Position numbers and translations under genes: made by a program
Assembly: GCA_030447445.1 (NCBI GenBank)
Contig: JAUJOW010000001.1
Coordinates: 453,734-517,733 of the forward strand
Length of the DNA stretch: 64,000 nt
DNA from: Acidimicrobiales bacterium
Lineage (GTDB): Bacteria > Actinomycetota > Acidimicrobiia > Acidimicrobiales > Iamiaceae
Reading direction: 5' to 3'
The notes under the pieces: generated by a model
What the model was told of the DNA's origin: nothing
Databases searched by the model: none
The model's input: only the letters and a program-made list of their open reading frames with translations
Shown: piece by piece, positions 1 through 48,312 of the stretch
How the letters are laid out: the number at the start of each line of letters is the position of its first letter
How positions within the stretch are numbered: the stretch's first letter is position 1

Positions 1-204
1 TGCTCTTCTTCGCCGGCGCCTTCTTGGCCGTGCTCTTCTTCGCCGGCGCCTTCTTCGCCGGCGTCGTCTTCTTCGCCGTGGTCTTCTTGGCCGTGGTCTT
101 CTTGGCCGTGCTCTTCTTCGCCGGCGCCTTCTTGGCCGTGCTCTTCTTCGCCGGCGCCTTCTTGGCCGTGGACTTCCTGGCCGATGCCTTCTTCGGTGGT
201 GCCA
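1..204. repeat. Tandem coding repeat for the AKKAPAKKS tail
   Basis: Imperfect repeats of about 12-30 bases (core CTTCTTGGCCGTG and CTTCTTCGCCGGCGCC on the plus strand) encode the lysine-rich tail of the NYN protein on the minus strand. Such tails vary in length between strains and are easily miscounted in assemblies. The array continues past the left edge. Confidence 0.85.
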
Positions 205-44541: not shown

Positions 44542-44955
44542 TCAGCGGGTCTGTCGGAGGGCCCAGCGGATGAGGGGCAGCTGCAGGGGCAGTCGCAGCC
44601 AGGAGAACCAGCCCATGGCGTCGTCGGGCATCCCGGCGTCGAGGGCCATCTGGACGTTGGCCGGGTAGACCGCCACGATCGTCGCCGCCGCCACGTACCC
44701 GCCGAGGCGCCGGGTGCGACGGCCGGCGAGAAGGGCACCGCTGACCAGCTCGGCCACCCCACTGATCCCCACCCAGAGCCGGGGGTGCGACAGCCACCGA
44801 GGGACGATCTTCTCGAACGGGGCGGGCACCACGAAGTGCAGGACCCCCATGAGCACCAGCAGCGCCGCCAGCCCCAGACGTGACCGCTCGGAGGCGGCCG
44901 GCCGGACGGGCGCAGCGGTGTCGGGCACCCACGGATGGTAGGAAGCTCGGGACAT
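44542..44955 (-). CDS. DoxX-like membrane protein
   Basis: A 137-residue protein with four hydrophobic helices: LGLAALLVLMGVLHFVV, LWVGISGVAELVSGALLAG, LGGYVAAATIVAVYPANVQM and a shorter C-terminal one. This matches the DoxX/MauE-type fold. The ATG start at 44955 shares its bases with the start of the divergent gamma-glutamyltransferase. A GTG about eight codons downstream is an equally good start. The role is unknown; relatives are linked to thiol redox in membranes. Confidence 0.75.
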   Translation of the reverse strand: MSRASYHPWVPDTAAPVRPAASERSRLGLAALLVLMGVLHFVVPAPFEKIVPRWLSHPRLWVGISGVAELVSGALLAGRRTRRLGGYVAAATIVAVYPANVQMALDAGMPDDAMGWFSWLRLPLQLPLIRWALRQTR

Positions 44956-46456
44956 GCCCGCCGAACCCGACGCCCAGGGGCGGGCTTCCGTCGCTGCCGG
45001 GCACCCCGCCGTGGTCGCCGCCGCCACCTCGGCGCTGGCTGACGGGGGCAACGCCTTCGACGCCGCCGTGGCCGCCGGTCTGGCCGGCGCGGCGGCCGAA
45101 CCGGCGCTGACCAGCCTGGCCGGCGGCGGGTTCTTCCTCGCCCGCACCGTCGCCGGCGAGGAGGTGCTGTTCGACTTCTTCGTCGACACGCCCGGCCGGG
45201 GCCTCGGTGCCGCCGATCGCCGGCCCCGCTTCGAACCCGTGACCGTGCGCTTCCCGGGGGCCACCCAGGTCTTCCACTGCGGGCTGGGATCGGTGGCCGT
45301 GCCGGGGGTGCTGGCCGGCTACCTCCACGTGCACCGTCGCCTGGGGCGGTTGGATCTCACCGAGGTGGTGGCCCCCGCCGCCCGGCTCGCCGCCGAGGGC
45401 GTGGCACTGGCTCCCCGCCAGGCCGAGGTGCTCGGCCTGCTGGAACCCATCCTGCGCCGCACACCCGAGGTGGCCGCCATCTTCGCCCCCGACGGCCCGC
45501 TCCTCGGCGCCGGCGACGTCGTTCGCAACCCCGAGCTGGCCGGCTTCATCGCCGACATCGGCCGTCGCCCCGACGCCACCTTCTACCAGGGCCACCACGC
45601 CGACGAGCTGGCCGGGGCCATGGCCGATGGTGACGGCCTCGTGACCTCGGCCGACCTGGCCGGCTACACCGTGGTCGAGCGACAGCCCCTGGCCGTCGAG
45701 TACCGGGGACGGCGGGTGCTCACCAACCCGCCACCGTCCTTCGGGGGCCGGTTGATCGCCCTGACGCTGCGGCTCCTGGCCGAGCGCTCGCCGGTCCCCG
45801 GATGGGGTTCGCCGGCCCACGTCACCGCCCTGGTCGAGGTCATGGCCGAGGTCGACCGCCGCCGGCGGGCCGAGCTGACGACCGGCTCGGACACCGGCCC
45901 GGGCGTGGTGACGCCGCCGGTGTCGACACGGGGCACCACCCACGTGAGCGTGGCCGACGCCGAGGGCAACGTGGCCTCCATGACCACCTCCAACGGCGAG
46001 TGCTCCGGCGACCTCATCCCGGGCACGGGAGTGCTGCTCAACAACATGCTCGGCGAGGACGACCTCCACCCCGACGGGTTCCACACCGCCGCCCCCGGTC
46101 GACGGGTGGCCTCGATGATGGCCCCCACCATCGTCATCGGTCCGGGGGGCGCCGTCGAGCTGCTCCTCGGCAGCGGCGGCAGCAAGCGCATCCGCACCGC
46201 CATCCCCCAGGTCCTCTCGGCCGTGATCGACCACGGGGCCGATGTGGTCACCGCCGTCGAAGCTCCGCGTCTGCACCACGAGGGCGGGCGCACCGAGGTC
46301 GAGCCGGGCTGGCCCGAAGCCGCCGTCGCCGCACTGGCCGCCCTCGGCGGGGTCAACGTGTGGTCGGCGCCAAACCTCTACTTCGGTGGTGTCCACGCCG
46401 TGGCCCCGGGACGAGGCGCCGCTGGTGACCCCCGCCGCGACGGCGCCGCCACCTGA
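44954..46456 (+). CDS. Gamma-glutamyltransferase family (Ntn) hydrolase
   Basis: A 500-residue GGT-like enzyme that should self-cleave before the catalytic Thr in GTTHVSVADAEGN (near residue 329). The large subunit begins AAGHPAVVAAATSALADGGN, with GGGFFLA and DFFVDTPGRG. The small subunit has LLNNMLGEDDLHPDGF, APTIVIGPGGAVELLLGSGG and IRTAIPQVLSAV. The oxyanion-hole GSGG is present. No signal peptide is visible, which is unusual for GGT and fits cytoplasmic members such as cephalosporin-acylase-like enzymes. AGGAAG lies 8-9 bases upstream of ATG 44954. Confidence 0.88.
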   Translation: MPAEPDAQGRASVAAGHPAVVAAATSALADGGNAFDAAVAAGLAGAAAEPALTSLAGGGFFLARTVAGEEVLFDFFVDTPGRGLGAADRRPRFEPVTVRFPGATQVFHCGLGSVAVPGVLAGYLHVHRRLGRLDLTEVVAPAARLAAEGVALAPRQAEVLGLLEPILRRTPEVAAIFAPDGPLLGAGDVVRNPELAGFIADIGRRPDATFYQGHHADELAGAMADGDGLVTSADLAGYTVVERQPLAVEYRGRRVLTNPPPSFGGRLIALTLRLLAERSPVPGWGSPAHVTALVEVMAEVDRRRRAELTTGSDTGPGVVTPPVSTRGTTHVSVADAEGNVASMTTSNGECSGDLIPGTGVLLNNMLGEDDLHPDGFHTAAPGRRVASMMAPTIVIGPGGAVELLLGSGGSKRIRTAIPQVLSAVIDHGADVVTAVEAPRLHHEGGRTEVEPGWPEAAVAALAALGGVNVWSAPNLYFGGVHAVAPGRGAAGDPRRDGAAT

Positions 46457-46462
46457 TCGAGA

Positions 46463-48004
46463 TCAGGTGACGCCGGTGTAGATCCACATGTAGGCCTCGT
46501 CCCGGTAGGGGATGCCGGTGGCGTCGAGGGCTGGCCCCCAGTCGCCGGTGACCTCGGGGTTCGACTCCTCCATGCCGTGGTCGGCCACGAGGAAGAAGGC
46601 GGTGCGGTCGAACACCCCGCGCCGCTCGATGGCGGCCATGACCTGCCCCAACCGGGCGTCGGTGTCGTGGATGCTGGCCCGGGCGATGTCGGACCAGGGG
46701 CCGCCCCGGTGGAACGCGGCGTCGGTCAGCGAGAAGTTCACCCAGGTGAACCGGGGCAGCGGGTACGACACGCCCTGGTAGCCGTCGCCCCACACCCCGA
46801 GGGCGATCTCGAGGCCCGTGTGGTCGATGCGCGACGACAGCTGGTAGGTCTTCTCGGGGCGCACGAACCGCTCGGTGGCGAAGGGCAGGTCCTCGGCGCG
46901 GGGTGGTCGCTCGGGCATGCGACCGTCGCGCAGGATGTGGAAGGTGCCGAAGTCGGCCCCGGTGTCGCAGGGCTCGTTGGCGGCCAGCGTGAAGGCGTCG
47001 GGCCAGGTGCGGTGCACGGCCTGGTGCAGGGTCTCCACCTCCGGCGAGAGCGACGCCATGCTCCACGGCCACGTGGCCGGCGAGTTCGTGATGACCTGCT
47101 CGCCCCGCTGGCGGTCGTACCAGGCGTTGTTGAGCACCCCGTGGTGGCCCGGGTGGCACCCGGTCAGCACGGTGGTGTGGTTGGCCAGGGTCACCGTCGG
47201 CATCGACGCCATCGCACCGTGGAGGTACGTCGTGCCCATGGCCATCAACCGGGCCACGTTGGGGGCCTCACCCCGGGCGGCGGCGTCGTACAGCACGTTC
47301 GGGTTGCAACCGTCGAACAGGAGGCCCACCACGTGGTCGGGCGGCGGCTCCCGGCTGTCGATGAGGTCGTCGAGCACCTCGCCGTCCTGGCGGCGCAGCC
47401 GGGCGTCGGGGCGGGGGCGACCGTTGAGGCCGACGCCGCCGGGATGGGGGGCGACGCCCATGAGGGCGGCCACGGTGGGAGCCACGTCGATCAGCCGGCA
47501 CGCCCGGGGGACGGCACCGAGCGCCTTGACGCCGGCCCCGGCCAGGATGAACGGGGCCCGGGCCTGCACGACGCCCATCGACCCGTGCTCCCCCCGCTCG
47601 CCGCCGTGGTCCTCCCAGTTGTGGGCCGAGGTGTGCAGGCAGACGACGTCGGGGGCGCTGGCGGCGTCGAACACCTGGGCCACCATCTCGTGGGCGAACG
47701 GGTAGCTGTTGGCCGTGCGGTCGGGCCAGGGGTGAGCGGTCTCCTCGTCGAGAGGGGCGAAGCGGTTGGTGGACCGGTCGCCGAGCGGGTTCCGACCCTC
47801 GACCGCCGTCTCGGTGAACCGCCAGCCGTAACCGTCGTCCTGCCGGCGGAAGCGGACCCGACCGTCGACGGCCCGGGCCTCGTAGCCGTCGCCGTCGGCG
47901 GTGATCACCATCTCGACGATGGGCTCGAGCACGGGGTCGAGCAGGGCCTCCACGGCGGTGTCGACCAGGTCGGGGTCGGGGGAGAGCGACATCGGGTTGC
48001 GCAT
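46463..48004 (-). CDS. Alkaline-phosphatase superfamily phosphodiesterase-like protein with apparently permuted motif order
   Basis: A 513-residue protein of the nucleotide pyrophosphatase/phosphodiesterase group. Residues about 245-300 hold the metal Asp (VVGLLFDGCNPNVLYD) and the nucleophile region MPTVTLANHTTVLTGCHPGH (Thr). FTWVNFSLTDAAFHRGGPWS gives further ligands and ADHGMEESNPE (Asp475) comes near the C-terminus. The distal His-bearing module (EDHGGERGEHGSMGVV followed by APFILAGAGVKALG, ending IDVAPTVAALMGV) normally follows the ADHG motif, but here it lies at about 110-190, before the nucleophile. It may be a circular permutation or a two-module protein. No signal peptide. Substrate unknown. 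Confidence 0.75.
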   Translation of the reverse strand: MRNPMSLSPDPDLVDTAVEALLDPVLEPIVEMVITADGDGYEARAVDGRVRFRRQDDGYGWRFTETAVEGRNPLGDRSTNRFAPLDEETAHPWPDRTANSYPFAHEMVAQVFDAASAPDVVCLHTSAHNWEDHGGERGEHGSMGVVQARAPFILAGAGVKALGAVPRACRLIDVAPTVAALMGVAPHPGGVGLNGRPRPDARLRRQDGEVLDDLIDSREPPPDHVVGLLFDGCNPNVLYDAAARGEAPNVARLMAMGTTYLHGAMASMPTVTLANHTTVLTGCHPGHHGVLNNAWYDRQRGEQVITNSPATWPWSMASLSPEVETLHQAVHRTWPDAFTLAANEPCDTGADFGTFHILRDGRMPERPPRAEDLPFATERFVRPEKTYQLSSRIDHTGLEIALGVWGDGYQGVSYPLPRFTWVNFSLTDAAFHRGGPWSDIARASIHDTDARLGQVMAAIERRGVFDRTAFFLVADHGMEESNPEVTGDWGPALDATGIPYRDEAYMWIYTGVT

Positions 48005-48102: not shown

Positions 48103-48312
48103 TCAGCGGCCCCCGCCCATCGCCGTGAGCACCAGGTTCCAGGAAGCGAGGCCGTGCTCGCACCAGGCGTCGGGCGCGACCCAGCACTCGTCGGGGCAGC
48201 GGCAGCCTCCGTCGGCCAACCACTCGGCCAACGTCTCCGGATCGGGCGGGGCCCAGCCGCTGTTGACCTCGAACCACGCATGGGTTCGCGCCACCGCCTC
48301 CTTGGAGGTCAT
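48103..48312 (-). CDS. Small Cys/Trp-rich protein
   Basis: A 69-residue protein not recognised by name. After an N-terminal helix (TSKEAVARTHAWFEVN) comes a cysteine cluster, CRCPDECW, then DAWCEHGLASWNLVLTAM. Four Cys and one His could bind zinc. The ATG at 48312 overlaps the stop of the upstream dehydrogenase (ATGA), which supports a real, co-translated gene. The phosphodiesterase-like gene follows after 98 bases. Confidence 0.6.
   Translation of the reverse strand: MTSKEAVARTHAWFEVNSGWAPPDPETLAEWLADGGCRCPDECWVAPDAWCEHGLASWNLVLTAMGGGR

Follow-up and report, generated by a model that had tools for sequence, protein, structure and literature searches.

A conserved actinobacterial Phosphodiest protein with rotated motif order, very probably a natural circular permutation in the alkaline phosphatase superfamily

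As a model for the evolution of enzymes and for catalytic promiscuity, the alkaline phosphatase superfamily is a standard choice, and to our knowledge the order of its motifs has been treated as fixed. This canonical order (nucleophile, D-x3-H, DH, distal His) is the usual one and does not by itself define the superfamily. A gene in the 64,000-nucleotide stretch of Acidimicrobiales DNA analysed here (the window) raises the question whether the same active site can be built from a chain that presents these motifs in another order. The initial annotation had read the gene as an apparent circular permutation, with the His-bearing module that normally closes the NPP-type enzymes ahead of the nucleophile module and ADHG near the C-terminus. 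From N- to C-terminus, the protein carries GEHGS (residues 138–142), IDVAPT (172–177), DG (231), TLANHTT (272–278), TDAAFH (427–432) and ADHG (474–477), and the His module (138–142 and 172) does lie ahead of the stretch 231–477 that holds the nucleophile module and ADHG. Downstream of ADHG there is no second GxHG...DVAPT motif, and the protein ends 36 residues after ADHG.

The open reading frame runs on the minus strand from an ATG at 48004 to a stop codon at 46463 and contains 513 codons (Table 1). Both ends of the protein are fixed by two orthologues (L015 and L017), which have an in-frame stop about three codons ahead of the same start codon and a stop codon at the same C-terminus. In addition, the coding frame has a GC3 of 0.97, and the two alternative frames have 0.71 and 0.51. 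The nucleophile and metal ligands of NPP3 are D168, T206, D326, H330, D373, H374 and H483, and D231, T272, D428, H432, D475, H476 and H140 of the window protein correspond to these seven positions, respectively (PMC6052110). All seven are invariant in 21 of 21 compared sequences, among homologues down to about 40% identity, which bears out the initial statement that every metal-ligand motif is present in rotated order. Moreover, GEHGS aligns with RGGHGS of the canonical enzymes in the profile-profile alignment and with GDHG of ENPP4 when the N-module profile is used. The canonical LVDVAPTIAALLGI, which aligns with IDVAPTVAALMGV of the window protein, sits near the canonical C-terminus.

Table 1. 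Location of the permuted gene, its modules and predicted active-site motifs in the window, and of the long relatives on their own contigs
Feature	Coordinates	Strand	Basis or remark
Whole gene, circularly permuted alkaline-phosphatase-superfamily enzyme (very probable), 513 aa	46463..48004	-	Translation, orthologues, GC3
N-module, residues 1-218, counterpart of the canonical C-terminal part	47351..48004	-	Profile A2, hhalign, AlphaFold2
Extra beta-hairpin segment inside the N-module, residues ~37-100		-	Family-specific feature
GEHGS, residues 138-142	47579..47593	-	H140, predicted third first-zinc ligand (H483 in NPP3)
IDVAPTVAALMGV, residues 172-184, strand/helix motif normally closing the domain	47453..47491	-	Aligned to canonical LVDVAPTIAALLGI
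Old-termini junction, residues 205-225, RRQDGEVLDDLIDSREPPPDHV region	47330..47392	-	One unbroken alignment through the copy junction when canonical sequences are doubled
C-module, residues 219-513, counterpart of the canonical N-terminal two thirds (nucleophile to ADHG)	46466..47350	-	PF01663, A3 profile
D231, predicted metal ligand (D168 in NPP3)	47312..47314	-	Invariant in 21 homologues
TLANH, T272-H276; T272 predicted nucleophile (T206 in NPP3)	47177..47191	-	Structure-sequence match, conservation
D428-x3-H432, predicted first-zinc ligands (D326, H330 in NPP3)	46709..46723	-	PafA match, conservation
ADHG, residues 474-477; D475 and H476 predicted second-zinc ligands (D373, H374 in NPP3)	46574..46585	-	PafA match, conservation
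N-C1-N2-C2 protein	L052:1574-5116		
N-C1-N2-C2 protein	L053:716-4744	minus	
N-C1-N2-C2 protein	L054:1121-4948		
N-C1-N2-C2 protein	L064:1328-5494	minus	

The Pfam profile PF01663 (Phosphodiest) matches residues 225–482 with 114.9 bits against a cut-off of 23; this match covers positions 1–225 only of the 342 in the profile, and the last third of the profile has no match downstream in the window protein. The alkaline phosphatase PafA (5tj3) matches in three rotated pieces, of which the first alone is significant (residues 219–311 to 15–107, 411–480 to 278–346, and 143–192 to 478–526). When the N-module profile was compared with solved structures, it matched canonical enzymes solely in their C-terminal parts, namely residues 461–511 of iPGM and 314–370 of ENPP4, though these matches are weak (E about 0.013–0.016). 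Along the canonical proteins of actinobacteria related to the family, the match to the C profile comes before that to the N profile (about positions 130–205). The permutation itself was tested by profile-profile alignment (hhalign) of the family against canonical sequences written either once or twice. On the single canonical copy two swapped half-alignments were obtained, one of residues 217–478 to template positions 2–223 (score 109.5) and the other of residues 131–215 to 332–397 (108.7), whereas on the doubled copy one alignment of residues 131–478 ran across the copy junction with a score of 213.9, about as high as the two half-scores added together. Three other canonical sets behaved in the same way, the paired scores of 98 and 66, 63 and 49, and 121.5 and 62 rising to 159, 107 and 178, respectively, while canonical control queries gained nothing from doubling (152.7 to 152.2). 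The pattern that marks a circular permutation, namely a continuous alignment on the doubled copy and a swapped pair on the single one, was found with four canonical sets, alongside negative controls. Furthermore, the query aligns end to end once it is un-rotated (positions 2–510 to 5–397). At the seam, the canonical C-terminal GRVLDELL and N-terminal RPEHVILVDWDG align nearly without gaps with GEVLDDLI and PPDHVVGLLFDG of the window protein, that is, the canonical C-terminal G-x-VL-x-x-L is fused there to a canonical N-terminal start of the RPEHV type.

The structure prediction that the initial annotation had proposed points the same way. With 13 homologues, AlphaFold2 gave a full-chain model with a mean pLDDT of 84.6 and a pTM of 0.89, in which the residues from 150 on within 128–218 reach a pLDDT of about 90–96; the stretches next to the empty metal site (141–146, 270–272 and 288–292) have low confidence. 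When the N-module was folded alone, pTM fell to 0.56 and residues 128–218 dropped under a pLDDT of 50. Since these residues lose confidence alone but not in the full chain, they depend, in the models, on the C-module, as expected for one shared domain, and the N-module is predicted not to be a separate domain. A Foldseek search against the PDB returned Xac NPP and other NPPs as the best fold matches, over about 260–310 columns and with a TM-score of about 0.3–0.36. Because Foldseek follows the chain order, a short alignment with a low TM-score is what a permutation should give, and it is no proof of one.

The same order, N-module and then C-module, occurs in one open frame in at least 20 further full-length homologues from separate genomes and several Actinomycetota families. 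In 61 related genomes, tblastn found full-length homologues at 43–85% identity, each in one open frame, and two single-contig genomes (G003 and G121) carry full-length homologues with the same order. The named relatives of the gene come from MAGs of Acidimicrobiales and other Actinomycetota, and the N-module profile A2, run against about 400 Actinomycetota genomes, added more homologues in families f19, f39, f54, f71 and f74, all of them N then C. The search for orthologues suggested at the outset has in this way yielded 21 full-length homologues that keep the rotated order; in all 21 the distal His is N-terminal, so they depart from the canonical order. This retention, together with the confinement of N-module profile matches to the C-terminal parts of canonical enzymes, shows that the rotated order does not reflect chance. 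In a plasmid collection only canonical PhnA/NPP-type matches were found, over the C-module, and a phage collection had no match to the window protein.

The assembly behind the window is a draft (37 contigs, 86% complete), which could favour the reading that the rotated order is an artefact confined to one genome, through assembly, rearrangement or frameshift; given that the order recurs in one open frame in homologues from different genomes and from several families, this reading was rejected, and we regard its probability as negligible. Another explanation would see in residues 1–215 a fragment of a second enzyme that forms an independent accessory domain, and in the C-module an incomplete or degenerate enzyme, completed by another protein or inactive. 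It draws on a group of long relatives in which a complete canonical unit is indeed preceded by an N-module, but the loss of AlphaFold2 confidence for residues 128–218 in the isolated N-module and not in the full chain, the invariance of all ligands, H140 included, in homologues as distant as about 40% identity, and the co-occurrence of the N- and C-modules in all short forms make it very improbable. The arrangement that would have told against a permutation, an extra N-terminal module followed by a complete canonical enzyme, is absent from the window protein and is seen in the long relatives, where a further C-module follows. On the swapped alignments that become continuous on doubled sequences, the flat controls, the orthologues with the shared order and an N-module that AlphaFold2 does not fold alone but places confidently in the full chain, we are highly confident that the gene encodes a genuine, functional and circularly permuted member of the Phosphodiest family (PF01663; NPP/PafA/PhnA-like) of the alkaline phosphatase superfamily, as the initial annotation had supposed.

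How the permuted enzyme came into being is less certain, and here the four long relatives (L052, L053, L054 and L064) are of importance. Their frames of 1181–1389 codons encode proteins in the order N-C1-N2-C2, which are secreted and have an Ig-like/carboxypeptidase-regulatory-like tail, with a sortase-type LPFTG end in L053. In each of them Pfam finds a complete canonical PF01663 (2–340 of 342) in the middle of the protein and a second PF01663 stretch. The outer N (79–114 bits) and C2 (139–161 bits) match the window family well and are relatives of the window protein, whereas C1 and N2, the inner pair, have diverged from it; the complete canonical unit between N and C2, the Ig-like tail and the secretion all set the long proteins apart from the window protein. 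From their sequences, this fits a canonical unit nested at the seam of a permuted enzyme. The C-module tree unites C2 with every permuted C-module in a single branch (99/98) that leaves out C1 and the canonical sequences, and one genome (G070) carries both the short and the long form. The permutation-by-duplication model expects functional duplicated intermediates (PMC3320104). By analogy, the N-C1-N2-C2 proteins may resemble the intermediate predicted by this model, and the long form may be ancestral or may have arisen by later insertion or duplication.

Considering these proteins, we lean, by a narrow margin of confidence, towards a first recognised natural permutation in the superfamily that arose by tandem duplication and truncation, with the N-C1-N2-C2 proteins, in which both active sites would be complete, preserving an intermediate. 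A different origin of the same permuted enzyme, the fission of a gene and the fusion of two half-genes, seems to us unlikely, yet it deserves to be weighed. It would agree with the finding that none of about 396 Actinomycetota genomes searched had a canonical-order gene with a full N-module (including residues 1–130), the canonical relatives matching the N-module profile only at positions of about 107–207, and with an AU test that did not reject C1 and C2 as a single clade (p 0.088). Against fission and fusion stand the likeness of the N-C1-N2-C2 proteins to the duplicated intermediates of the duplication model (PMC3320104) and the fact that the full-length N-module matches in the sampled genomes had a C-module after them.

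Compared with the known systems, the NPPs (Xac NPP, 2gsn/7n1s, and NPP3; PF01663) share with the window protein the metal ligands, the Thr nucleophile and an Asn 21 residues later, but they have the canonical order, with the His (H483 in NPP3) and a DVxP motif after ADHG, and most are secreted or membrane proteins, unlike the probably cytosolic window protein. Among PDB sequences, PafA (5tj3), which is periplasmic, matches the nucleophile module best, but it is canonical in order, and the window protein scores 65.2 bits against the family cut-off of 650 (NCBIfam NF042991). Likewise, PhnA phosphonoacetate hydrolase (TIGR02335) is 33–37% identical over the nucleophile stretch and differs in its canonical order and its own insert near the C-terminus; here the score is 44.7 bits against a cut-off of 407.55.

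In the mechanism that we propose, the chain break would have been relocated to the loop after the strand that follows ADHG, the old C-terminus would be joined to the old N-terminus via a short linker (about residues 205–222), and the two segments would pack as one alpha/beta domain, in which H140 of the N-module would complete the two-metal site of D231, T272, D428, H432, D475 and H476. T272 would attack the phosphorus while N293 would hold a phosphate oxygen, and a phosphoenzyme would form and then be hydrolysed. N293 is invariant in 13 aligned homologues and lies 21 residues past T272, as in NPP and PafA, a spacing read from the alignments to solved structures, and we take it to be the phosphate-binding Asn of the NPP/PafA type. 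From the complete site together with this Asn we infer a two-metal phosphoesterase that would act via a threonine phosphoenzyme, that is, a putative dizinc phosphodiesterase or phosphomonoesterase of the NPP/PafA/PhnA type. The substrate is probably a phosphodiester, a pyrophosphate or a phosphomonoester, and a nucleotide-type phosphodiesterase may serve as a tentative first guess. Since no signal peptide is evident in the 513-aa protein, it is likely a cytosolic enzyme, unlike the secreted long forms. Directly ahead of the metal His, H124-x3-H128 (about 47621–47635, minus strand) is invariant in 21 of 21 permuted homologues and was not seen in the canonical relatives inspected; like the beta-hairpin segment it is specific to the family, and it is possibly an extra metal or substrate site.

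The open literature yielded no case of a natural circular permutation for the alkaline phosphatase superfamily, although one may have been noticed earlier in other papers. A survey of structural outliers gives for this superfamily solely the PhnA insertion, and no permutation (PMC3779223). A comparable event is known from an unrelated superfamily, in the AlgX/PatB1-type SGNH hydrolases, which are circularly permuted in HSGN order, the catalytic His block being shifted from the end of the chain to its start (PMC9487903). A conserved natural permutation would mean that the metal site can assemble from the chain in another order, with newly placed termini, and with the doubled relatives a mechanism that has been proposed for circular permutation can be tested directly. 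Genes of this kind will be mistaken for truncated ones, because PF01663 finds two thirds of the domain only, and an order-dependent structure search with the permuted enzyme returns a TM-score of only about 0.3.

The neighbours of the gene in the window encode a gamma-glutamyltranspeptidase, RsgA and a 6-phosphogluconate-dehydrogenase-like protein with DUF1932; there is no constant partner gene, and the neighbours differ between families and so give no clue to the substrate. Directly upstream lies a small ORF (48103–48311, minus strand) of about 69 aa, MTSKEAVARTHAWFEV..., rich in Cys and Trp, which had no Pfam match in the part scanned. The gamma-glutamyltranspeptidase gene (44954–46463, plus strand) converges on the permuted gene, with 6 bases between the stop codons. 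In one genome (G027) the homologue is broken near residue 298 across two contigs (L013 and L014), where an apparent IS3-type transposase reading frame adjoins the break, and this copy has probably been disrupted by an insertion sequence.
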